43,757 nucleotides of DNA from Paenibacillus sp. FJAT-26967 (GTDB taxonomy: Bacteria; Bacillota; Bacilli; Paenibacillales; NBRC-103111): assembly GCF_001541095.1 (NCBI RefSeq), contig NZ_LMXH01000002.1:2484-46240 (forward strand), given 5' to 3'. A program made the translations under genes and the position numbers. This document shows, in pieces, positions 26,484 to 37,807 of this stretch; the first letter of the stretch is position 1; every line of letters starts with the position of its first letter. The notes beneath the pieces are model-generated. The model saw nothing but the letters and a program-made list of their open reading frames with translations. It searched no databases and was not told the DNA's origin.

Positions 26484-26650
26484 ATCACAGAGAGGATTTG
26501 CACATTCGCCCCTTAATCTTGACCTTGCCAAAAAACATTTTCAAAAAGATAATCATGGACGATGTTTCCAGGTTAGGATTATAATGCTGACAGAACGGAG
26601 CTTAATAATCCATCTTATTGCTCGGAGCCAAAGCCGGAAGGGTGAGCCAG

Positions 26651-27868
26651 GTGTCATCGAATATCCGTAAAATGCTGATGATGAACTTTGTTTCGTCAAT
26701 TATTTTTATTTACATCGGGATTTTTATTAATTTGTATATTTGGCAGGTTAACAACAGCATTTTTGAAGTTTCTTGGTTTAACCTGGTTATGTTTATAGGC
26801 TGGGGCATCTCCTTTGTACTGGGGGCGCGGATGCTGTACAGGCAGACAATCCGCCTGCTGCTGGCTTTGTCGGCTGTCAGCGGTGCGGCTGCCTTCCTGC
26901 TGCTGACTTTCCTCACTCTGGATAACCGGAATTTGTGGATCGCTATGATCGGTTTGCCGGTAGGGCTGATGTGGGGGTTCTATACGGTTGCTCAGAATTT
27001 AAGTGTGTCTTTCTCTGGGAAAGGCAGCGAAGTCGCTTCTTTTTTTGCCGCCAATAACCTTATCGCTCAGGTCTTATCCATGGTTATTCCGATCGTATCC
27101 GCCCAGTTTATCGGATGGTTCGGCTATGAAAGCTCGTTTATTCTCATGTTTGTCTTTGTTATTATCATGCTCCTGTTCTCTTATACGATGCCTAAAATAT
27201 CGATGCCCCTTTCCGAGGGGCCCCAACTGGGTTTCTGGAAAGAACTTACCGTAAAAAAGGTGTTCGGCAGCCGCCAATCGGTCTGGCTCGTCCTGTCCAT
27301 CCTTGCAGGCGGCGTATTCCTGCAATTTCAGAACCTGTTTACACTCGTGTTCACTTTTACCGTTACCCAGGATAAACTGCTGATCGCCCTGCTGAATGTG
27401 CTTTATACGGGTTCCGCTTTTCTGGGCCTTGTGCTGTACCGCAAATTCAAATGGAACGATAATCTCTGCCTGTGGCTGGGAGTTATTCTTCTGTCGGCGG
27501 GGTTTGTTGTTGCGCTCTTCCCGCTGCATCCGCTGCTGATTTTGTCCAATGTGTTGACGGCTTTCGGAATGTTCTTCTTCGCGATGATCTGGAATGCGCA
27601 GCAGTTTCACTGTATCGAGAATTTCCCGCCTGCCCGTAAGGCCGCTTTTCTGATCTGGCGTGAGGGCCTCTTAATCGGCATGCGTATCATTCTGCTTGTT
27701 TTTATCATGCAGCTTCAAAGTCTGGACGGCTGGTTGTATGTGGCCCTCATCGGGATTACGCTGATCAGCTTGATTTTAATTCCTGTTTTTCAGACAAAAG
27801 CAGTTAAAGTGATGGTGACGGGCAGGGCGCCTTCATCCCCGGGAACTTCCATTTCAGAAGGAACCTGA
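26651..27868 (+). CDS. MFS transporter
   Basis: A 405-aa integral membrane protein with 12 predicted TM helices in two six-helix halves, of major facilitator type. It is mostly hydrophobic with short loops, a central loop of about 25 residues (MPKISMPLSEGPQLGFWKELTVKK) and a Ser/Thr-rich C-terminal tail. The substrate and direction cannot be told from sequence. The GTG at 26651 is chosen because GGAAGGG lies eight bases before it; an in-frame TTG at 26618 has none. A TATAAT at 26580-26585 may be its -10. It is followed by a strong terminator, so it is not part of the pts region downstream. Confidence 0.85.
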   Translation: MSSNIRKMLMMNFVSSIIFIYIGIFINLYIWQVNNSIFEVSWFNLVMFIGWGISFVLGARMLYRQTIRLLLALSAVSGAAAFLLLTFLTLDNRNLWIAMIGLPVGLMWGFYTVAQNLSVSFSGKGSEVASFFAANNLIAQVLSMVIPIVSAQFIGWFGYESSFILMFVFVIIMLLFSYTMPKISMPLSEGPQLGFWKELTVKKVFGSRQSVWLVLSILAGGVFLQFQNLFTLVFTFTVTQDKLLIALLNVLYTGSAFLGLVLYRKFKWNDNLCLWLGVILLSAGFVVALFPLHPLLILSNVLTAFGMFFFAMIWNAQQFHCIENFPPARKAAFLIWREGLLIGMRIILLVFIMQLQSLDGWLYVALIGITLISLILIPVFQTKAVKVMVTGRAPSSPGTSISEGT

Positions 27869-27921: not shown

Positions 27922-27965
27922 AAACCGGACTTAGGACTAATTTCCTGAGTCCGGTTTCTTTTTGC
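27922..27965 (+). terminator. Terminator after the MFS gene
   Basis: AAACCGGACTTAGG pairs with CCTGAGTCCGGTTT (one G-U pair) around an 8-nt loop, then CTTTTTG. Confidence 0.88.
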
Positions 27966-28086: not shown

Positions 28087-28344
28087 ATGCAGAAAGAATT
28101 TTCCGTGCAGAATCCGCTAGGGATCCACTCACGCCCTGCCGGGGCTTTGATGAAGAAAGCAAAATTATTTCCATGTGAAATCACTGTTACTAAAGGTGAC
28201 AAAACCGTAAACGGCAAAAGCATCGTCGGTTTGCTGTCGCTCGAAATGCGTTACGGAGATAAAGTAACCGTCAACACGTCCGGTGAGCAGGAAGAGGAAG
28301 CGCTGAACGAGCTCGGGCAAATGCTCGAATCCGTTCTTGAATAG
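28087..28344 (+). CDS. ptsH: Phosphocarrier protein HPr
   Basis: An 85-aa HPr of normal length. The PEP/EI-dependent phosphorylation site is His14 in NPLGIHSRPAG, and the HPr-kinase site is Ser45 in GKSIVGLLSL. Having both sites makes it a true HPr rather than Crh, able to pass phosphate to PTS permeases and PRD regulators and, as HPr(Ser-P), to assist CcpA. GGGAGGAG precedes the ATG. ptsI follows with a 9-bp gap, as in most Firmicutes, but no ptsG-type permease gene is upstream. Whether this is the only ptsHI pair of the cell cannot be judged from the window. Confidence 0.96.
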   Translation: MQKEFSVQNPLGIHSRPAGALMKKAKLFPCEITVTKGDKTVNGKSIVGLLSLEMRYGDKVTVNTSGEQEEEALNELGQMLESVLE

Positions 28345-28353
28345 GTGAATAGC

Positions 28354-30108
28354 ATGAATAGGCAGGAAGAAAATGTTAAAATAAAAGGAATTGCGGCTGC
28401 TCCTGGCTATGCAATGGGCAGAGCGCAAATCTGGCAGGAAGTGCCCGTTGAGGTCGGCAGACGGATTCTGGCTGAGGAAGAAGTGGCAGCAGAAGTAGTG
28501 CGGCTAGAGCTGAAAACCAAGCAAGCGCTTGCAGAACTCCAGTCTCTCAAAGAAGAGACGGCGCAGAAAATGGGGGAAGCTCATGCCGAAATCTTCGAGA
28601 CACACATGCTGCTTCTTGAAGATGATGATTTCATCGGCGCTGCGGCCGCCAGCATCCGCTGTGAGCATGTGAATGCAGAGGCAGCGGTGGAAGAGGCTGC
28701 GCAGGCCCTCGTCGCCGTATTCGAGAACATGAATGACGCCTACATGCGCGAACGCGCATCCGACATCCGCGACGTCGCCAAACGTCTGCAGCGTCTGCTG
28801 CGCGGTGAAGAAGCCGATATGCAGGTCGGAGGCAGGGAACCGGTCGTTCTGTTCGCCCACGACCTGACGCCATCGGATACGGCCCGGCTGGACCGCAGCC
28901 GCGTTACCGGCTTCGCTACCGCTATCGGCGGCAGGACCTCGCATTCCGCGATCATGGCAAGATCGCTGGAGATTCCCGCCATTGTCGGCATGGGCGACGC
29001 ACTCCAGCAGGTGAAAGCCGGCGACTATGTGATCGTCGACGGCAGCGAAGGCGCGGTGTACATCAATCCGGATGCGGAGCTGATCGGGCAGTACCGCTCC
29101 AAACAAAGCCGCTATGAAGAACGCCGCAGCCGGCTGCAGGCCTATGTCAGCCGTGCTTCGGAGACAGCCGACGGCAAGCACGTCGAGCTGGCGGCGAACA
29201 TCGGCGGCCCGCAGGATGCCCAGGCGGCCCGCACGGGCGGAGCCGAAGGAATCGGTTTGTACCGGACGGAGTTCCTGTACATGGGCCGCGACACGATGCC
29301 GACGGAGGAGGAGCAGTTCCTCGCGTACAAAGTCGTCGCCGAAATGTTCCCGTCCCAGCCGGTTGTGATCCGGACCCTCGATATCGGCGGAGACAAAGAA
29401 TTGCCGTATCTGAGCCTGCCGAAGGAAGCGAATCCGTTCCTGGGCTATCGCGCCATCCGGCTTTGTCTGGACCGCAAGGACTTGTTCCTCACCCAGCTTC
29501 GCGCCATCCTTCGCGCCAGCGCCTTCGGCAAAGTCAAGATCATGTACCCGATGATCTCGAATATCGAAGAGCTGCGCCAAGCGAATGCGGTTCTCGCGGA
29601 AGCCAAAGCAGAGCTGGATGCCGAGGGAATTGCCTACGGCCAGGACGTAGAGGTCGGCATCATGATCGAAGTGCCGGCTGCGGGCATGGCAGCGGATCAA
29701 CTCGCTTCCGAAGCTGATTTCTTCAGCATCGGCACGAACGATCTCGTGCAGTATATGATGGCTGCTGACCGGATGAACGAAACGATCGCTCATCTGAGCG
29801 AACCGTTCAATCCGGGCGTCCTCCGCCTGATCCGGCACGTGATCGAGTCGGCGCACGCCAAAGGCCGGTGGGTCGGCATGTGCGGTGAGATGGCCGGCAA
29901 TGTGACGGCTATTCCGCTGCTGCTGGGAATGGGCCTGGATGAGTTCAGTATGGGAGCGGGATCTATCGCCGCCGCCCGGGGGCTTCTGCATAAGCTCGAC
30001 AGCGAAGAGATGAAGCTGCTGGCAAGTGAAGCGCTCGAGCTGTACACGGCAGAAGAAATCAAGCAGTATGTGATCGGCCGCGTTCCTGCCGTATCGGAAT
30101 GGCTGTAA
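28354..30108 (+). CDS. ptsI: PTS enzyme I (phosphoenolpyruvate-protein phosphotransferase)
   Basis: A 584-aa cytosolic enzyme I, the first PTS kinase, which moves phosphate from PEP to HPr. It has the N-terminal HPr-binding domain with helical insert (about 35-150), the swivelling phosphohistidine domain with active His197 (AIGGRTSHSAIMAR), and the C-terminal PEP-binding TIM barrel with GLYRTEFLYM, the IEVPAAGMAAD loop, FSIGTNDLVQY and the catalytic Cys in GMCGEMAG. The ATG at 28354 is taken as start because AGGTG lies seven bases upstream; an in-frame GTG at 28345 directly follows the ptsH stop but lacks a site. The middle and end of the gene are visibly richer in GC third positions than its neighbours. 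Confidence 0.96.
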   Translation: MNRQEENVKIKGIAAAPGYAMGRAQIWQEVPVEVGRRILAEEEVAAEVVRLELKTKQALAELQSLKEETAQKMGEAHAEIFETHMLLLEDDDFIGAAAASIRCEHVNAEAAVEEAAQALVAVFENMNDAYMRERASDIRDVAKRLQRLLRGEEADMQVGGREPVVLFAHDLTPSDTARLDRSRVTGFATAIGGRTSHSAIMARSLEIPAIVGMGDALQQVKAGDYVIVDGSEGAVYINPDAELIGQYRSKQSRYEERRSRLQAYVSRASETADGKHVELAANIGGPQDAQAARTGGAEGIGLYRTEFLYMGRDTMPTEEEQFLAYKVVAEMFPSQPVVIRTLDIGGDKELPYLSLPKEANPFLGYRAIRLCLDRKDLFLTQLRAILRASAFGKVKIMYPMISNIEELRQANAVLAEAKAELDAEGIAYGQDVEVGIMIEVPAAGMAADQLASEADFFSIGTNDLVQYMMAADRMNETIAHLSEPFNPGVLRLIRHVIESAHAKGRWVGMCGEMAGNVTAIPLLLGMGLDEFSMGAGSIAAARGLLHKLDSEEMKLLASEALELYTAEEIKQYVIGRVPAVSEWL

Positions 30109-30189: not shown

Positions 30190-32136
30190 TTGTACTTGCA
30201 GGAGGGATTACTGATGACGTTAACTACACGATCTCGTGCATTGCTCAAAAAAATCGTCTATTCACGGAGTCCTCTGAGGATCAAGGAATGTGCGGAAGAA
30301 TTCCAGGTTAGTGAGCGGACCGTCAAATATGATCTGGAAGCCATAAGAATCTGGCTCCAGCAGGAGAGCATCGAACTTCAGTCCAGACCGAACAAAGGGA
30401 TCTGGATTGAGTGCGGGGATGCGGAGAGGATTCATCTCCTGGAACGGCTGGATGCGGTAAGCGAGCATGTTTTTCTTAATCAGCAGGGCCGCATGAGGTA
30501 TATGCTCATTGAACTTCTGCTGAACGACGGATACGTGACCATCGGCGAACTGGTGAACAAACATGACGTCAGCCGGAATACGGTGCAGGCCGATCTTGCC
30601 ATTGCGCAGCAGCAGCTCGTCCATTCGAATCTGGAGCTGGTCCGCAGCAGGCACGGAATCAAGGTGAGCGGCCCCCGGCTTCGAAAACGCGCAGCTCTGG
30701 AGAATATTATCCAGGATCTGCTCGACGGTAATGACATGTTCCAGATTGTGCAGGGAGTTGTCCGGGAAAGAAAGCCCAAGCTCCACTTCAGCAAGCTGCT
30801 GGAATGGTTCCTGGAGCCCGTCGGGGATCTCGACCGTATTTTCCAAGTGGTCGGAAGTCTAGTGAGACAGACGCGCGAGAGGACGCATATCCTGCTGTCG
30901 GATAATGCCATCATTGGCGTGTTTATCCGGCTATGTATCGTCATCCGCGGGAATTTTACACTAGAAGGTGAGGATGAAGCCGGTCTGAATCAGCAGACGC
31001 CGCTCTCACCGCCCCGTGCCCTGACCCGGCATCATACGTGTATAACGGAACTGTTCCGCGATCAATTAACCGGACTATCCGCTGTGCTTGAGCGCGAATT
31101 TACCGACGAAAGCATCCGGTACGTCAGTTTACCCGCAATCGGCATGATACCTCAGATGCTGAAGGATAAAGATGAGGCGGGGCAGATGCTGCCTGACGCT
31201 TATCTGGTTACGAAGACGCTTATTGATCTCGTCAGTGAAGCCGTGCGCGTCCGGTTCCGGCAGGATCCCGATCTCATGCAGTATCTGCATGCTCATGTCG
31301 CCGATAAACTCAACAAATACAGCTATGGAATCGCCGATCCCAATCCTTTGCTGCATGAAATTATGCGTTCTTACCGCCAGATGTTCGATCCTGTCCGGCA
31401 AGCCTGCAAAGAAGTATTCGCTCCTTACGGCATTACACTCTCTGATTCCGACGTAGCGTATATAGTTCTTCATTTCCAGGCTGCTTTTGAACGGCGACAG
31501 GACACTCAGGTCTATAAGGCGCTGGTTGTATGCGGTACCGGACGGGGAACATCGAAGCTTTTGAAAACGGTCATTGAGAATGAGATCAAAACGCTTCAGG
31601 TTGCGGCTTTTTGTTCGGTGATGGAGTTTGAGAAACAGAATGTCACCGATTTTGATCTGGTTATCAGTATTTTTCCGATCGATTCGGCTGTGCCCGTCGT
31701 CGTGGTTAATCCGATTCCGGATAAGAATGACTTCAAATCGATACGTTTGAGGCTGGATCATCTGGAAGAGACGCGGGCCCCTCAAGATCCGCTGGCGCGG
31801 GTGAACGATAGTTTGCAAAGGCCCGAGCTGTCTTATTTAGAACAGAAGTTTCAAGATATTATCTGGAAAGGCTTCGAGCTTAGCCGGGCTATCCGGACCC
31901 GTTTCGCAGACTACCTGAGCGAAGACAGAATGGAAGGCTTAACGCTTCATTTGCTTTTTATGATGAACCGCATTGCGTTTGATACAGCTTATGTCCAGTC
32001 CGGCAACTCAGCCGTTCCTGAAGGTATCGGAGGGGAAGCGGTACAGCACTTGAAGGAGCTGCTTTCCGAACATCGGATTCATGCGACAGAAGGCGAAATC
32101 ATGGCCATTTTAAGGTATTTTGAGAGGAGTTCGTAA
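30190..32136 (+). CDS. BglG/MtlR-type PRD-containing transcriptional regulator
   Basis: A 648-aa regulator. Domain order: two winged HTH domains (about 5-65, with RIKECAEEFQVSERTVKYDL; and about 100-155, with VTIGELVNKHDVSRNTVQADL); PRD1 (about 195-320); PRD2 (about 330-435) with His369 and His428; an EIIB-like domain (about 440-525) with Cys448 in VVCGTGRGTSKLL; and a third, C-terminal PRD-like domain (about 545-648) with His587 (LTLHLLFMM). PRD1 lacks both His at the usual places (GVFIRL and VSLPAIG), so phosphorylation control probably acts on PRD2 and the EIIB Cys. This is a DNA-binding activator rather than an RNA antiterminator. It is first in the operon and controls, most likely, the genes that follow. 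The next gene starts two bases after its stop. Confidence 0.9.
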   Translation: MYLQEGLLMTLTTRSRALLKKIVYSRSPLRIKECAEEFQVSERTVKYDLEAIRIWLQQESIELQSRPNKGIWIECGDAERIHLLERLDAVSEHVFLNQQGRMRYMLIELLLNDGYVTIGELVNKHDVSRNTVQADLAIAQQQLVHSNLELVRSRHGIKVSGPRLRKRAALENIIQDLLDGNDMFQIVQGVVRERKPKLHFSKLLEWFLEPVGDLDRIFQVVGSLVRQTRERTHILLSDNAIIGVFIRLCIVIRGNFTLEGEDEAGLNQQTPLSPPRALTRHHTCITELFRDQLTGLSAVLEREFTDESIRYVSLPAIGMIPQMLKDKDEAGQMLPDAYLVTKTLIDLVSEAVRVRFRQDPDLMQYLHAHVADKLNKYSYGIADPNPLLHEIMRSYRQMFDPVRQACKEVFAPYGITLSDSDVAYIVLHFQAAFERRQDTQVYKALVVCGTGRGTSKLLKTVIENEIKTLQVAAFCSVMEFEKQNVTDFDLVISIFPIDSAVPVVVVNPIPDKNDFKSIRLRLDHLEETRAPQDPLARVNDSLQRPELSYLEQKFQDIIWKGFELSRAIRTRFADYLSEDRMEGLTLHLLFMMNRIAFDTAYVQSGNSAVPEGIGGEAVQHLKELLSEHRIHATEGEIMAILRYFERSS

Positions 32137-32138
32137 AG

Positions 32139-33272
32139 ATGAAAGCGGAATTGCTAATAATTGGCGGGACGATCGTTGATCCTTCTACTGGTAGATCCGG
32201 CGCGGGCGATGTCCTCGTCAGCCAGGGGCGTATTGTTGGGGTAGTGGAGCCGGGAACGGCTGTAGAGGCAGAGAGAACATTGGATGCTGCCGGCTGTTAC
32301 GTATCACCGGGCTTTATTGATATTCATACCCACATTTATGAGGGTGTGCAGGAGATGGGCGTTGCTCCCGACCGCGTCGGGATCGACCAGGGCGTTACGA
32401 CGGTCGTAGATGCAGGCAGCTCCGGCTTTGCGAATTATGAGGATTTTGTTAAAAGAAGTATCGAGCCGAGCAAAAGCCGCGTACTGGCCTGGCTGAATAT
32501 CTCCGCGCCCGGACTTGCCGAGGGGCGCTCTGAGCTGGCTGATCTAGCGAAGCTTGATCCCGAAGCGACGCTTGAGGTCATTGAGCGTCACCGCGACAGT
32601 ATTATCGGAATCAAGGCTAGAATGAGCGGCTCGGTTGTTAAATCAAGCGGTATCCGCCCGCTTGAGATCGCTAAGGATACGGCGAGAGAAGCAGGCCTGC
32701 CGGTGATGGTTCACGTAGGCAATGCGCCGCCGGCACTCGGTGATGTGCTTGACTTGCTTGAAGCGGGGGATGTCGTTACCCACGCTTTCCACGGCAAAGC
32801 AGGCGGCATCCTGAATGCGGACGGTTCCTTGATTCCGCAGGCAGCCGCTGCGCTTGAGCGTGGTGTTCTGTTCGACGTCGGTCACGGCAGCTCAAGCTTC
32901 AGTTTTGATACGATGATCAAAGCCAGGGAGCTTGGAATTCATCCTTACTCGATCTCTACGGATCTTTATCTTGTTAATTTAGTTGAAGGGCCTGTATACA
33001 GCCAGGCGATCACCATGACCAAACTGCTGGCGCTCGGTTACACCCTGGAAGAGGTTATTACGTGGGCGACTTCCGCACCCGCCAAAGTGCTTGGACTGGA
33101 ATCAGAAATCGGGACCTTAAAAGAAGGTTCAGAAGCCGACATCACCATCTTCCGGATCGAAGAGGAGCCTATTCTTCTTAAGGATGCGGAGGGCAAAACC
33201 ATAGCGTACAACCAGCAGCTCATTCCACAATATACCATAAGAGCTGGAGAGATATACACATGTTCAACCTAA
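32139..33272 (+). CDS. Amidohydrolase/deacetylase-family metallohydrolase (EF_0837 type)
   Basis: A 377-aa TIM-barrel amidohydrolase. Metal ligands are visible: His63 and His65 (DIHTH), Lys159 (GIKARMSG, probable carboxylated bridging Lys), His192 (MVHVGN), His215 (THAFHG) and Asp275 (STDLY). These fit a binuclear zinc enzyme. It belongs to the family represented by Enterococcus EF_0837, related to N-acyl amino acid deacetylases and acyl-hydroxy-acid esterases. In this operon it could remove an acyl group from an N-acylated amino-sugar acid before DgaE acts; that is inference. GAGGAG precedes the ATG, which lies two bases after the regulator stop; the gene overlaps the next by 13 nt. Confidence 0.92.
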   Translation: MKAELLIIGGTIVDPSTGRSGAGDVLVSQGRIVGVVEPGTAVEAERTLDAAGCYVSPGFIDIHTHIYEGVQEMGVAPDRVGIDQGVTTVVDAGSSGFANYEDFVKRSIEPSKSRVLAWLNISAPGLAEGRSELADLAKLDPEATLEVIERHRDSIIGIKARMSGSVVKSSGIRPLEIAKDTAREAGLPVMVHVGNAPPALGDVLDLLEAGDVVTHAFHGKAGGILNADGSLIPQAAAALERGVLFDVGHGSSSFSFDTMIKARELGIHPYSISTDLYLVNLVEGPVYSQAITMTKLLALGYTLEEVITWATSAPAKVLGLESEIGTLKEGSEADITIFRIEEEPILLKDAEGKTIAYNQQLIPQYTIRAGEIYTCST

Positions 33273-33622
33273 ATGAAGTCATGGAAGAAATTCCGCAGAA
33301 AACGGAAGCTTCCGCAGAGAAACTAGAGATTGTCCAAACCCTTCTTACGGATCTTCGGCTCATGTCTGAAGATATTAGTCTAAGCATCCCGCATACGAAA
33401 GCCGTTATTATAGGCATACATCTTCTTGCCTTTCTGAGAAGAGTGGACCTGGACGAATATTTGCCGGAAATTGAGCCGGAGATGTTCGAAGAGCTGAGTA
33501 CGGAGTCTATCGAACTGAGTAAACGTCTGTTCAGCAGCTATCAGTTCCCTCCTACAAGAAAGCTGGATGATGCGGAAGTGTTTTTCCTGGCAGTTCATTT
33601 TGAAGCTGCCAAATCTAACTAA
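33260..33622 (+). CDS. Stand-alone PRD domain protein (EF_0829 type)
   Basis: A 120-aa protein made of a single PTS regulation domain. Both phosphorylatable His are present, in IIGIHLLAFLRRV and FFLAVHFEAAK, separated by about 65 residues, the usual PRD spacing. There is no DNA- or RNA-binding domain. It presumably is phosphorylated by HPr or an EIIB-like protein and either partners with the large regulator (whose own first PRD lacks His) or controls a transport protein. ATG 33260 lies inside the amidohydrolase gene with GGAGAG seven bases upstream. Confidence 0.87.
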   Translation: MFNLNEVMEEIPQKTEASAEKLEIVQTLLTDLRLMSEDISLSIPHTKAVIIGIHLLAFLRRVDLDEYLPEIEPEMFEELSTESIELSKRLFSSYQFPPTRKLDDAEVFFLAVHFEAAKSN

Positions 33623-33636
33623 CAGGAGTGAAATCC

Positions 33637-34002
33637 ATGGAAAACAAAGTGAAAGTAGTTATTGGCGATCGTTTAGGTAAAGGGCAGAATGTAGCCAAAG
33701 GTGTCGAGGCGGCCGGCGGAATAGCGATTGTGATTCCTGGTGTAGGCGCTGATATGAAGCTCGGGGACGTTATGAACAAAGAAAACGCGGATTTCGGTAT
33801 CTCGTTCTGTGGCAGCGGCGGTGCAGGTGCCGTTACAGCTAATACCAAATATAAATATCCGATGGAATTCGGAATGCGTTCGATTGATGCAGGAGTTACG
33901 GCAATACGCGAAGGTAAAAAAGTGCTCGGTTTCGGTTTTATGGACGTCGAAGAGCTTGGACGCCGTTTGACGGAAGAATATAAAAAAGTAAACGGGAGGT
34001 AA
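33637..34002 (+). CDS. Glycine-rich SFCGS-family protein (EF_0830 type), unknown function
   Basis: A 121-aa soluble protein of the SFCGS family, named for the motif FGISFCGSGGAGAV (Cys58). The protein starts as a beta strand and Gly loop (VKVVIGDRLGKGQN), with further Gly-rich turns (GVEAAGGIAIVIPGVGADMK) and a C-terminal helix (DVEELGRRLTEEYKK). The size, the alpha/beta pattern and the Cys at a strand end recall PTS EIIB proteins that carry phosphate on Cys, but I cannot show homology. The ATG at 33637 is chosen over an in-frame GTG (33628) because AGGAG lies eight bases before it. It has no known role; it is always, as far as I know, encoded with DUF4310-4312 genes. Confidence 0.88.
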   Translation: MENKVKVVIGDRLGKGQNVAKGVEAAGGIAIVIPGVGADMKLGDVMNKENADFGISFCGSGGAGAVTANTKYKYPMEFGMRSIDAGVTAIREGKKVLGFGFMDVEELGRRLTEEYKKVNGR

Positions 34003-34010
34003 GGCAGACT

Positions 34011-34349
34011 ATGTTTCAGCAAAAACCGTTAACGCTCGTTGTCAGTGGGTCCTCGGAAACGAAGCAGGGCGCATTTCAGCAGGCCCTTACCCGTATGAAA
34101 GGTCAAATTTCAAGGGAAACAACCGATGTGCTCATGCAAATTGAGCCGCAGGAAGTGGAGATCGTTTCGGCCAACGTGACGCAGTACCGCGAGAAGTTTC
34201 TCGGACTGTTCTTTCCGCGGAATCGGACCCGTTATGATGTAACGCTGCGGATAACGGTGAAGCTGAAATATGTGAACCTTGATGAGCTTGAGTTTACTGA
34301 AAATGCCGAGAATCTCAGTAAATACCAGCGCATTCTCAAAATGCGTTAA
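34011..34349 (+). CDS. DUF4312-family protein (EF_0831 type), unknown function
   Basis: A 112-aa soluble protein. The N-terminal strand-helix unit (LTLVVSGSSETKQGAFQQALTRMKGQI) is followed by two long beta strands (TDVLMQIEPQEVEIVSANV; TRYDVTLRITVKLKYVNL) and a short helix. It fits the DUF4312 family found in the same operon of Enterococcus and enteric bacteria. There are no catalytic signatures I recognise. GGGAGGTAAGG precedes the ATG, nine bases after the SFCGS gene. Given its small size and position it may be a soluble component of the membrane system encoded by the next two genes. Confidence 0.87.
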   Translation: MFQQKPLTLVVSGSSETKQGAFQQALTRMKGQISRETTDVLMQIEPQEVEIVSANVTQYREKFLGLFFPRNRTRYDVTLRITVKLKYVNLDELEFTENAENLSKYQRILKMR

Positions 34350-34426
34350 AAGATAGAGCTGAGATTACTAGAGATAGAGAGTGGATTTGGGAAGCTGTCT
34401 GTATTCTGAAGTTCTGGGGGATTCAT

Positions 34427-35215
34427 ATGAGTATTACATTGGCCATCATTTTTAAGTCCATCATTATCGGACTGCTTGTCGGCTTTGGTGTTGGAGCCGG
34501 CGCGGCGCGTATGTTCCATGCGCCGAACGTGCAAGGGATGGGCGCTTTCCGCACATTCGGAGAACTGAATGCCTGCGAAGGCGACTCCGTAGCCCACTTT
34601 TCATTCGGTCTGGGCTTTCTGTTCAATGCCTGGGCGTCTGTTGTCGGTGCCGGTGCACTGACACAGGACGTCGATCACCGGATTATTCCGCACTGGTCGG
34701 CAGCTGCCCTGCTATCGCGGAACAAGAAGCTTGAAGAGACGCTTCACGATCCGCGTAAAATGGCTTGGGCAGGCGCAATTATCGGTGCGATCGTTGTCGC
34801 TCTGCTTAACTCAACAGCGGCAGCTATCCCGGCTTCGCTGCAATCCGTAGCGACCAAGGTCCTGGTGCCTGCCGCTAACTGGCTGATTAATCCGATCATG
34901 CCGATCGTATTCTGGACTGCGGCAATGGATGCAGGCAAGCGGACCGGTGTGTGGGCGACTCTGCTCGGCGGCTTCTCTCATCTCGTGATGGGTAACGCGG
35001 TTCCGGGTATCGTGCTTGGTATTCTAATCGGCAAGGGTGTTGATGACGGCGGCTGGAACCGTATCACCAAAACGATGCTGGTTGCCATTATTCTGCTGTT
35101 CGTATTCAGCGGTTTCTTCCGTGCCTTCGATGTGGCTCTTCTGAAGAGCATGAGCATCGCAACCCCGCAGTGGCTGATTGACCTGCACGCATTCTTTGGA
35201 TCGGTGGTGAAATAA
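34427..35215 (+). CDS. DUF4311-family membrane protein (EF_0832 type), candidate transport subunit
   Basis: A 262-aa integral membrane protein with about six to seven hydrophobic segments. It opens with a Gly-rich helix (SIIIGLLVGFGVGAGAARMF), has a polar, conserved-looking segment NVQGMGAFRTFGELNACEGDSVAH that could line a substrate site, and a second such loop DVDHRIIPHWSAAALLSR. The family has no assigned function. With the 216-aa DUF4310 protein it forms the membrane part of this operon, and no other permease gene is present, so a transport role is likely by context. The ATG follows CTGGGGGATTC; a 77-bp gap separates it from DUF4312. DUF4310 starts two bases after its stop. Confidence 0.87.
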   Translation: MSITLAIIFKSIIIGLLVGFGVGAGAARMFHAPNVQGMGAFRTFGELNACEGDSVAHFSFGLGFLFNAWASVVGAGALTQDVDHRIIPHWSAAALLSRNKKLEETLHDPRKMAWAGAIIGAIVVALLNSTAAAIPASLQSVATKVLVPAANWLINPIMPIVFWTAAMDAGKRTGVWATLLGGFSHLVMGNAVPGIVLGILIGKGVDDGGWNRITKTMLVAIILLFVFSGFFRAFDVALLKSMSIATPQWLIDLHAFFGSVVK

Positions 35216-35217
35216 CC

Positions 35218-35868
35218 ATGGAAAACAACTTGCAAAAAGGCTTCTGGTATTCCGAATGGGCATTTGTTTTATTCGTTGCTTGTCTTTCCTCTGGGATTTT
35301 TGCCGGAACTCACTTATACTATGTATATCATGTAGGTGCATTCAACGATATTGCTATCGTAGCTATGCTTGAAGCAGGTATCAAAGGTGGAGCCTATGGC
35401 GCCGCAGCGGCATTCGGTGCGAGCTTCTTGTTTGCCCGTATTCTGGAAGCTCCGCTGGTTGGTATTCTGGATATCGGCGGTTCTCTACAGACAGGTATCG
35501 GTATCGGTGTTCCCGCTCTGATGCTTGGAGCAGGCATGACGGCTCCCCTTACCAACTTCCCGCTTGCTTTGCTTACGGGAGCCGCTCTTGGCGTAGCTGT
35601 AGGCGGCGTTATCATTCTGATCCGTAAATTTACGATCAATGCGTCCAATTCAACCTTTGGTGCCGATGTCATGATGGGAGCGGGTAATGCCTCCGGACGT
35701 TATCTGGGTCCGCTGATTGTAATCTCTGCGGTTATGGCTTCGATTCCCGTTGGAATCGGTGCGACGATCGGTGCAGCTATTTTCTACTACTATAAAAAAC
35801 CGATTGCCGGCGGTGCGATTATCGGAGCTATGATACTGGGTGCAATCTTCCCGATCGTGACGAAATAA
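35218..35868 (+). CDS. DUF4310-family membrane protein (EF_0833 type), candidate transport subunit
   Basis: A 216-aa membrane protein with about six hydrophobic segments. It is very rich in Gly and Ala, with a run of helix-packing motifs (GGAYGAAAAFGASFLFARI, GILDIGGSLQTGIGIGVPA, GAALGVAVGGVIILI). The GDxxTG/GGSLQTG-like stretch is reminiscent of mannose-class PTS EIIC proteins, although I cannot show relationship. The protein starts in the cytosol or outside with a short polar tail (ENNLQKGFWYSEW). ATG 35218 lies two bases after the DUF4311 stop with GGTG upstream, so the two are coupled. Function unknown; partner of DUF4311 in a probable uptake system. Confidence 0.87.
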   Translation: MENNLQKGFWYSEWAFVLFVACLSSGIFAGTHLYYVYHVGAFNDIAIVAMLEAGIKGGAYGAAAAFGASFLFARILEAPLVGILDIGGSLQTGIGIGVPALMLGAGMTAPLTNFPLALLTGAALGVAVGGVIILIRKFTINASNSTFGADVMMGAGNASGRYLGPLIVISAVMASIPVGIGATIGAAIFYYYKKPIAGGAIIGAMILGAIFPIVTK

Positions 35869-35950
35869 ACCTACACGGAATACGGATACAAAATTTAAGC
35901 AGCAAGATGTTCATACCATGGATTCAAATCAAGGATAGAGGAGAGAGACC

Positions 35951-37051
35951 ATGAGTATCTTTGAGCAGTACGGATGCAGACAGGTAATTAATGCGAGCGG
36001 TAAAATGACCGCACTCGGCGCCAGCGCCGTCCACGAAGATGTGGCGGCAGCTGTTGCGGAGGCGGCGAAGGATTATGTGGATATCAGTGAACTGATGGTT
36101 CAAGCCGGCAAAGTGATTGCCGAGGTGACGGGCGCCGAAGACGGCTGTCCGACAACCGGAGCAGCCGGAGGCATCGCGATCTCGGTCGCGGCCGTCATTG
36201 CGGGCAAGAGCCTCAGTCTGATTGAACGCATACCGCTCACGGATGGCCTCCGTAATGAGATCATCATCCAAAAAGGACACTCGGTTCACTTCGGCGCCTC
36301 CATTCCACAGATGATTGCAATCGGCGGGGGCAAAGTCATTGAAGTGGGCCAGGCCAACCATGTCGAGAAGGATCATATCGCGGAAGCGGTTACGGATAGA
36401 ACCGCAGCACTTCTCTACGTGAAATCTCACCATGCGGTGCAGAAGGGAATGCAGTCCATTGAGACAATGGCTGCCATCGCCAAAGAGAAGGGAATTCCTC
36501 TGATCGTAGACGCTGCAGCTGAGGAAGATTTCCGCAAATATGTTGCCATGGGTGTGGAAATCGTGGTATATAGTGGCGGTAAAGCACTAGAAGGCCCGAC
36601 ATCCGGCTTCATTTGCGGACGCGCGGATCTGATGGAAGCGTGCCGCGCCCAGTATAAGGGAGTCGGACGCCCGATGAAGATCGGCAAAGAGGGCATCGTC
36701 GGATTGCTGACGGCGCTCCGCCGTTACGACAACCGTCCGGATGAGTCCGAGCAGCAGCGTGAGCGTATGGAGTGGCTGATCGCCGAGCTGCAGAGTGTTC
36801 CGGGTGTCAAAGGAGCTATCCTGCAGGATGAAGCGGGACGTGCCATCTATCGTGCGCAGCTGACGATTGATCCCAAGGCAGCAGGCAAGACGGCTTATGA
36901 ACTGATTAAAGAGCTCGAAGCCGGTAATCCTGCCGTTTATACTCGCAATCATTATGCGAACCTGGGGATGATCAGCATTGACCCGCGTCCGCTTCTGGTT
37001 GGACAGGAGCAGATTATCGCAGAGAGAATCAAAGCGATTCTGCAAGCTTAA
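35951..37051 (+). CDS. dgaE: DgaE-type PLP-dependent ammonia lyase (D-glucosaminate-6-phosphate ammonia lyase family)
   Basis: A 366-aa PLP enzyme of the SelA-related family. Lys211 in YSGGKALEGPTSG is the Schiff-base Lys, Asp187 in IVDAAAEE contacts the pyridine nitrogen, and TTGAAGGIAI forms the phosphate cup. In Salmonella, DgaE converts D-glucosaminate-6-phosphate to 2-keto-3-deoxygluconate-6-phosphate and ammonia. Here DgaF follows 33 bases downstream, which supports the same two-step path to pyruvate and glyceraldehyde-3-phosphate. The substrate could differ, since no Dga-type PTS permease is present. GAGGAGAG precedes the ATG at 35951. An 82-bp gap after DUF4310 shows no terminator. 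Confidence 0.9.
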   Translation: MSIFEQYGCRQVINASGKMTALGASAVHEDVAAAVAEAAKDYVDISELMVQAGKVIAEVTGAEDGCPTTGAAGGIAISVAAVIAGKSLSLIERIPLTDGLRNEIIIQKGHSVHFGASIPQMIAIGGGKVIEVGQANHVEKDHIAEAVTDRTAALLYVKSHHAVQKGMQSIETMAAIAKEKGIPLIVDAAAEEDFRKYVAMGVEIVVYSGGKALEGPTSGFICGRADLMEACRAQYKGVGRPMKIGKEGIVGLLTALRRYDNRPDESEQQRERMEWLIAELQSVPGVKGAILQDEAGRAIYRAQLTIDPKAAGKTAYELIKELEAGNPAVYTRNHYANLGMISIDPRPLLVGQEQIIAERIKAILQA

Positions 37052-37084
37052 TCCGTTAAAGAAAAGGGAGATGGAGAGAACGAT

Positions 37085-37807
37085 ATGTCACAACAACCTA
37101 CGATTAAATTAAATGTTCTTGCAAAAACTGCTGAAAACGCGAAACAGATTGTTGATGCAGCGGAAGGCCGCGTTTACGTGGGACTGATGGTTAAAAACTT
37201 CGCTTCCGTAGATGAAGCCGTCCAGACAGTGGACGAGTTTCAACAAGCAGGCGTGCCTGTCTCGGTAGGTCTGGGTGCAGGAGATCCGGCTATGTGGAGC
37301 AAGGTTGTAGATGTTTCGATCCGCACCAAACCGGCTCACGTGAATCAAGTATTCCCGGCAGCAGGCTATACACTGGGCGCTATGCGCGCAGCGGGCAGCC
37401 CGGATACACTGGTCAACGCTCTGATCACCCCGAGCGGAACTGCAGGTCAAGTTAGAATCGCAACGGGTCCGACAAGTGTTCAGTTCGAGAACGACACGGT
37501 TTCTTGTGAAGCTGCTGCGGCTATGCTGGCTGAAATCGGCATCCACTCCGTGAAATTCTACCCGATCGGCGGCGTAGACCACCTGGACGAGCTTGCTGCT
37601 ATGGTGAAAGCTTCCGTTGCTCAAGGCATTAAAATCTTCGAACCGACTGGCGGAATCGACATCGATACGATCGGCCGTGTTGTAGAAGTATGTGCAGAGA
37701 ATGGCGCTGAGATCATTATTCCACACGTGTATACGTCGATTATCGATAAGGCGACAGGCTTAACCCGCATTGAAGATGTAAAAGAATTAATGCGCGCGAT
37801 TTCGTAA
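37085..37807 (+). CDS. dgaF: DgaF-type 2-keto-3-deoxygluconate-6-phosphate aldolase
   Basis: A 240-aa cytosolic class I aldolase of the KDGP aldolase (formerly DUF1341) family. Lys157 in HSVKFYPIGG is placed as the Schiff-base Lys; the G-x-G loops GLGAGDP and EPTGGID suit a phosphate-binding TIM barrel. It would split KDPG made by DgaE into pyruvate and glyceraldehyde-3-phosphate. It is the last gene of the operon: 80 bases later a terminator ends the transcript. GGGAGATGGAGAG precedes the ATG. Confidence 0.91.
   Translation: MSQQPTIKLNVLAKTAENAKQIVDAAEGRVYVGLMVKNFASVDEAVQTVDEFQQAGVPVSVGLGAGDPAMWSKVVDVSIRTKPAHVNQVFPAAGYTLGAMRAAGSPDTLVNALITPSGTAGQVRIATGPTSVQFENDTVSCEAAAAMLAEIGIHSVKFYPIGGVDHLDELAAMVKASVAQGIKIFEPTGGIDIDTIGRVVEVCAENGAEIIIPHVYTSIIDKATGLTRIEDVKELMRAIS

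Follow-up and report, generated by a model that had tools for sequence, protein, structure and literature searches.

How does a bacterium take up and phosphorylate an amino-sugar acid when the enzymes for its breakdown are encoded without the mannose-type permease that accompanies them in Salmonella? The question is raised by an operon in a stretch of 43,757 nucleotides from Paenibacillus sp. FJAT-26967 (positions 2,484 to 46,240 of contig NZ_LMXH01000002.1; "the window" hereafter means this whole stretch), the genome of a Paenibacillus close to P. lutrae. The operon joins DgaE- and DgaF-family enzymes to a unit of five genes, encoding a stand-alone PRD protein, SFCGS, DUF4312 and the membrane proteins DUF4311 and DUF4310, and is preceded by genes for HPr and enzyme I (EI) of the phosphotransferase system (PTS). 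Known PTS permeases belong to a small number of superfamilies whose A, B and C parts can be recognised, and the unit is not filed with any known enzyme II (EII) family because the tested domains that define those families are lacking. Drawing on computed gene content and order, residue conservation, a fusion of the PRD protein to SFCGS, the distribution of sugar kinases and the adjacency of HPr and EI genes, we lean, with modest confidence, towards the unit being a PTS-driven, phosphorylating uptake system for a sugar acid that stands outside the known EII families.

A conserved five-gene unit

All nine plus-strand open reading frames (ORFs) that a first-pass annotation had described for this operon, from a regulator to DgaF, belong to the families it named (Pfam, NCBIfam). 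Those of the unit encode the PRD protein of the EF_0829 family (33260..33622; TIGR03582, E 1.6e-13, under its cut-off), SFCGS (33628..34002; PF14272, 2.8e-60), the soluble DUF4312 protein (34011..34349; PF14189, 7.5e-28), and the DUF4311 (34427..35215; PF14188, 1.5e-116) and DUF4310 (35218..35868; PF14187, 3.3e-106, membrane-bound by hydropathy) proteins, with a DUF4311 sequence 99% identical to the copy at locus L002. A search with DUF4311 recovered 51 loci besides the window, from Bacilli, other Bacillota and Proteobacteria. SFCGS, DUF4312, DUF4311 and DUF4310 occur together in 50 of them, the exception (L031) ending at a contig end, and their earlier grouping as a unit stands; what had been missed is a fifth core gene, as 49 of the 50 testable loci have the stand-alone PRD protein upstream of SFCGS (it was not found in L043). 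The order SFCGS-DUF4312-DUF4311-DUF4310 recurs across Bacilli, other Bacillota and Proteobacteria and is identical in every run listed, which is more than chance. Approached from the other side, with an SFCGS profile run against 398 genomes from the phylum, the search matched eight, and in all seven that exceeded the cut-off, the window genome among them, DUF4312, DUF4311 and DUF4310 lie beside SFCGS, in keeping with the co-occurrence that had been expected. The eighth match (L120, under the cut-off) was judged by eye from its sequence to be RpiB and left out of the SFCGS count. The conserved unit comprises five genes: PRD protein, SFCGS, DUF4312, DUF4311 and DUF4310.

Two of the soluble proteins carry invariant residues of the kind used in phosphotransfer. 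His54 and His113 of the PRD protein are unchanged in all 50 aligned rows and lie 59 residues apart, a spacing equal to that of PRD-1 in MtlR, whose PTS-phosphorylated histidines are given in the available excerpt of PMC8560693 as pairs 59 (PRD-1) and 57 (PRD-2) residues apart. Similarly, Cys61 of SFCGS, which sits in a glycine-rich loop, is invariant in 47 of 47 rows. In one genome only, the PRD protein and SFCGS are encoded by a single ORF of 249 amino acids (L128:9134-9883; PRD at 2-119, E 2.5e-17; SFCGS at 130-247, E 2.4e-61), an arrangement that suggests adjacent places for them in a single chain. The DUF4312 alignment contains no invariant histidine or cysteine. DUF4311 and DUF4310 are both multi-helix membrane proteins in which numerous polar positions are invariant, and the AlphaFold2 (AF2) model of DUF4311 is all-helical (pLDDT 84.4, pTM 0.68); the monomer may represent half of a heteromer. 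Kinship between the two membrane proteins was considered and rejected on profile comparison and shuffles.

A counterpart outside these loci is the yhf cluster of E. coli (L053:4936-12345, yhfS-yhfZ), which encodes the SFCGS relative YhfU (DUF2620), the PRD-protein relative YhfY and the membrane protein YhfT. SFCGS and YhfU are full-length relatives (hhalign score 32.1 versus a maximum of 16.7 over 60 column shuffles), the SFCGS cysteine is kept in five of five YhfU proteins, and profile comparison also relates the PRD protein to YhfY (P 2e-6). Also shared is the presence of a membrane protein, which lies between YhfU and YhfS. The yhf cluster differs in having a single 434-residue YhfT with no detectable kinship to DUF4311 or DUF4310, no annotated DUF4312 and other enzymes. 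The FH/FND motifs that YhfT shares with DUF4311 and DUF4310 had suggested such a kinship, but the score, from five YhfT sequences only, fell inside the column-shuffle range. A further likeness is to the glucitol-type PTS (SrlA/SrlE/SrlB), which also consists of two membrane chains plus soluble parts; however, no component of the unit shows profile similarity to it, and the idea of SFCGS as a glucitol-type EIIB, prompted by a Cys-Gly loop like that of SrlE, was dropped when profiles of 18 SrlE, 18 SrlA and 17 SrlB sequences gave nothing.

DgaE, DgaF and sugar kinases

The four families were claimed to accompany DgaE and DgaF, and they do so well beyond the window. In 44 of the 51 loci (the cis loci), DgaE is found no more than 2.5 kb downstream of DUF4310; L025, whose contig ends after DUF4310, is outside this count. 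At L013 and L014 the dga operon is upstream of, and separate from, the unit, while at L006, L009, L022 and L049 the unit stands alone and a DEAC-DgaE-DgaF set is found elsewhere in the genome in all four cases. Among the 398 genomes, DgaF-family genes occur in 13, including all seven that bear the unit (hypergeometric p 6e-12, with relatedness ignored), and in one of them (G200) DgaF lies on a contig other than that of the unit. The known Salmonella dga operon (the mannose-type PTS DgaABCD plus DgaE and DgaF) shares with this locus the DgaE and DgaF families, a PTS link and the 6-phosphate pocket of DgaE. In contrast, the Paenibacillus operon has no mannose-type EIIABCD, five other proteins in its place and an additional amidohydrolase. 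That a mannose-type permease is not the partner is borne out more widely: in a survey confined to this permease class, mannose-type EIIC (PF03609) had no match in 32 of 49 genomes bearing the unit and was present in 17, so that such a permease does not always reside elsewhere in the genome. The gene set is, as had been proposed, that of the Enterococcus EF_0829-EF_0839 neighbourhood (TIGR03577-03583), with which it shares the same families, compared here through family models only, and to which the window adds HPr and EI. In the available excerpt of PMC7701990, EF0839 is noted as a divergent eda-like aldolase, possibly linked to amino sugars. No functional study of these families, of the yhf genes, of the solved entries, of stand-alone PRD proteins or of N-acetylglucosaminate was found in the open-licence literature.

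In the window, DgaE is a pyridoxal phosphate (PLP)-dependent ammonia-lyase (35951..37051; TIGR01437, 2.4e-146) and DgaF a 2-keto-3-deoxygluconate-6-phosphate (KDGP) aldolase (37085..37807; TIGR03581, 1.8e-86; nearest solved structures 3nzr and 3lm7). The former aligns with the catalytic residues and the phosphate-binding Arg301, Arg332 and Arg346 of the solved enzyme (DGL). These three arginines, His163 and the PLP-lysine are unchanged in all 56 DgaE rows, His162 is kept in 55, and position 226 is arginine in 31 and lysine in 25. Since the arginines, His163 and the lysine are kept, the DgaE substrate should arrive phosphorylated; the available excerpt of PMC9529869, extended by inference, likewise has the chemistry of DgaE requiring a 2-amino aldonate 6-phosphate. 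Between regulator and unit, an EF_0837-family amidohydrolase/deacetylase (32139..33272; NF006689, 1.4e-135; nearest solved structures 8wzy, 2ics and 2ogj) would point to an N-acyl substrate, for example N-acetyl-D-glucosaminate. As a separate observation, a HAD-family phosphatase gene lies directly 3' of DgaF in five loci (L031:3382-4191, L125:5546-6340, L127:11669-12469, L128:4578-5384 and L129:5062-5862).

Where the phosphate would come from is suggested by the distribution of sugar kinases. None of the 44 cis loci matched a PfkB or FGGY kinase when the loci DNA was searched by tblastn with 11 PfkB proteins and one FGGY protein, a result that other kinase families could escape, as the Pfam tallies of the 155 flanking ORFs list 25 of 82 and 25 of 145 families; among all loci the only matches were at L013 and L014. 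In each of the 12 cases in which a DgaE-DgaF operon lacks a cis copy of the unit, a sugar kinase was present (PfkB in L013, L014, L131-L134, L148-L151 and L154; FGGY in L152, near a sodium:solute symporter gene), although these counts come from related genomes and are not independent, and exclude L153 (DgaF-like only, at 34%, with no DgaE match). The kinase-type operons have the phosphate-binding arginines in their DgaE too, in agreement with a kinase step that precedes DgaE in them. The simplest reading of this pattern is that the unit supplies the phosphate. Some of the kinase-type operons look like cases of uptake without phosphorylation, or of hydrolysis of an imported disaccharide, with the kinase needed afterwards. 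For example, a gene for MupG (6-phospho-N-acetylmuramidase) lies near the operons at L154:2213-8881 (also near a PTS EIIC), L132:4211-9262 and L149:5159-11129, suggesting a pathway for a disaccharide with an amino-sugar acid at its end. As a side observation, at L148:1343-8281 a GFO_IDH_MocA oxidoreductase gene and a xylose-isomerase-like gene lie upstream, where they perhaps make the aldonate inside the cell.

HPr and enzyme I beside the unit

The operon had been described as nine genes, and these hold together, but that description stopped too early: genes for HPr (28087..28344; PF00381, 2.4e-27; His14 and the KSI motif with Ser45 present) and EI (28345..30108; TIGR01417, 6.8e-205; active-site motif GGRTSHSAIMAR) precede the regulator on the same strand. 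These ptsH and ptsI paralogues are separated by 0 bases and are extra copies in a genome with five HPr and four EI matches. From the end of EI to the likely start of the regulator is 105 bases (ATG at 30214, behind AGGAGGG, is likelier than TTG at 30190, the start of the listed ORF), and among the terminator-like sites listed by the scan none lies between the two on the plus strand. The regulator itself (30214..32136) is of the MtlR/Mga type, with two helix-turn-helix domains (PF08279 and PF05043), a PRD (PF00874, 7.6e-18) and an EIIB-like domain (PTS_IIB match at 4.9e-4 in the Pfam scan, under its cut-off). The gaps from regulator to DgaF are, in order, 2, -13, 5, 8, 77, 2, 82 and 33 bases, so the earlier description of gaps of mostly 2-9 bases is right for four of the eight and wrong for the others. 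Upstream of HPr, a 15-pair hairpin followed by a T run (27922-27957) lies between an MFS-type gene and the HPr gene, and is probably the terminator of the former.

Beyond the window, 22 of the 51 loci have a same-strand HPr next to the unit and 11 have an EI there, counts that carry no chance expectation. Their placement varies, from upstream with EI (Paenibacillus) or without it (other Paenibacillus) to downstream of the unit in Brevibacillus, a record titled Anoxybacillus, Desulfosporosinus and Hungatella; downstream HPr-EI was also seen in L125, which comes from an independent sample. The phosphorylatable histidine of HPr is kept in all 21 aligned rows (the window and 20 of the 22 locus HPrs), and among the 11 other locus EIs the motif pattern is present in eight, with variants in L024 and L043. 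HPr-like genes that come after the locus on the opposite strand in the enterobacterial L044-L046 and L048 were left uncounted, as they apparently belong to a RapZ gene cluster (RapZ in four members). At genome level, EI was found in 49 of 49 unit-bearing genomes searched (L012 and L025 left out) versus 73 of 199 sampled across the phylum. A tree was built from 25 EIs, ten of them from the loci. On it the locus label requires five changes, at least three of them forced by well-supported branches, and is less scattered than most random relabellings make it (7 of 500 shuffles score as low), with many deep branches open. The tree retains one outlier row (G355a; branch length 10, no motif), probably a wrong-frame ORF. 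The locus EIs do not form one clade.

A proposed uptake system and its alternatives

From these patterns we infer transport, every phosphotransfer step and the substrate as follows. Phosphate would pass from phosphoenolpyruvate to EI and HPr, using the copies encoded beside the operon, and on to a histidine of the PRD protein, which would do the job of an EIIA; from there it would move to Cys61 of SFCGS, in the job of an EIIB, and to the incoming sugar acid. The EIIB role is proposed for SFCGS because of the conservation of its cysteine, its fusion to the PRD protein and its gene context. DUF4311 and DUF4310 would carry the sugar acid through the membrane, each forming half of the translocator, with DUF4312 as a putative accessory subunit. 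The compound delivered would carry a 6-phosphate and is probably an N-acyl-2-amino aldonate, for example N-acetyl-D-glucosaminate. Three enzymatic steps would follow: removal of the acyl group by the EF_0837-type amidohydrolase, deamination through DgaE to give 2-keto-3-deoxygluconate-6-phosphate, and cleavage by DgaF into pyruvate and glyceraldehyde-3-phosphate. The PRD/EIIB-like regulator would sense the phosphorylation state. The first-pass annotation had read the four families as a transporter for an amino-sugar acid or its acylated form; uptake of such a compound is still the best reading, and the evidence favours a phosphorylating system of PTS type over a plain transporter.

Several observations weigh against this proposal. 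At the level of the proteins, none of the tests made here shows SFCGS to be homologous to EIIB, and it matched neither PTS_IIB nor a glucitol EIIB profile; DUF4310 and DUF4311 sequences matched no EIIC in Pfam or the PDB, and the DUF4311 model matched no PDB fold at E <= 0.001 (best E 1.2), an outcome that in itself speaks neither for nor against a transporter. In addition, no Pfam or NCBIfam match to an EIIA of known family occurs in the five-gene unit, and a sequence search for solved relatives of the four families returned none that was convincing (best E 0.053, SFCGS versus a nitrogenase). On the side of the enzymes, DgaE and DgaF of the window belong to the families claimed for them and fall below the NCBIfam equivalog cut-offs (415.6 versus 600 bits and 278 versus 300 bits), so the substrate may differ from glucosaminate, possibly as an epimer; L017 (Paenactinomyces) has the unit and DgaE with no DgaF-family match in its genome. 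As for the general PTS proteins, 29 of the 51 loci have no HPr beside the unit, the usual EI active-site motif was not found in the EI of L031, and the EI tree may be explained by one gain followed by losses in place of several gains. EI is near universal in Bacilli, and its presence is informative only outside that class because all seven sampled Bacilli carry it.

A rival reading is a non-phosphorylating transporter, formed by DUF4311 and DUF4310 together with soluble subunits, in which HPr, EI and the PRD protein would do no more than regulate transcription and transport and a kinase encoded elsewhere would add the phosphate. PRD domains are, in the available excerpt of PMC8560693, classically regulatory targets of HPr and EIIB, and HPr and EI could serve PRD regulators alone, one of which, with its own EIIB-like domain, stands beside the unit. 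The loci without an adjoining HPr and the lack of an EIIC-like fold in the DUF4311 model fit this alternative, as do seven unit-bearing genomes (L006, L009, L013, L014, L022, L049 and G200) that also carry a kinase-type dga operon. However, it sits poorly with the cis loci, which lack a PfkB or FGGY kinase while the phosphate pocket of DgaE is kept, with the recurrence of EI, and not HPr alone, beside the unit in varied arrangements, and with a PRD fused to SFCGS and not to a DNA-binding domain. We regard it as unlikely, though it is the most serious of the alternatives.

A different role for SFCGS, and one we consider improbable, is to isomerise or epimerise the sugar acid or its phosphate after import, as an RpiB/LacAB-like enzyme and not as a phosphocarrier, with DUF4311 and DUF4310 as the transporter. 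The AF2 model of SFCGS (pLDDT 91.5, pTM 0.86) is a five-strand alpha/beta fold with Cys61 directly after strand 3, a position that we take to be that of the catalytic cysteine (CGTG) in RpiB/LacAB, and its strand order presumably fits RpiB; in lactose-type EIIB the cysteine follows the first strand. An hhalign match of SFCGS to RpiB aligns the Cys-Gly loop (P 0.006; YhfU-RpiB 6e-4), and the SFCGS Pfam profile weakly matches the RpiB-like L120 (E 4.8e-4, under the cut-off). In contrast, SFCGS is shorter than the RpiB/LacAB isomerases, whose loop it shares, the profile signal is weak, and the family profile PF02502 did not reach its cut-off against SFCGS (E 0.2). An isomerase would not be expected to be linked to two membrane proteins or fused to a PRD, and the known dga pathway, in the available excerpt of PMC9529869, needs none. 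Less probable again is that the unit is a PTS-linked membrane sensor or signalling complex, with the sugar acid entering through another permease. The PRD protein and the PRD regulator do share an operon, the unit occurs without the enzymes beside it at L006, L009, L022 and L049, and HPr is closely preceded by an MFS-type gene in the window (26618-27868) and its nearest relatives (MFS_1 in 4 of 77 flanking ORFs). Yet two multi-helix membrane proteins rich in invariant polar residues argue for transport, the other transporters flanking the unit are scattered (ABC_tran 8 and MFS_1 4 of 155 flanking ORFs, among the families listed), and the hairpin and T run part the MFS gene from HPr.

The PTS-driven uptake system that we favour could, more tentatively, represent a new class of PTS permease, in which a PRD serves as a catalytic phosphocarrier, an RpiB-like EIIB works via phospho-cysteine and a two-chain membrane unit has a new fold, with yhfT-yhfU-yhfY as a second branch. 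If the proposal is correct, it would show how phosphorelays can be put together from other parts, here a PRD domain of the regulatory type together with a protein that resembles an isomerase. It would also give a testable function to four uncharacterised families in Bacillota and Proteobacteria and, by kinship, to part of the uncharacterised yhf cluster of E. coli, and would make a route for amino-sugar acids complete.

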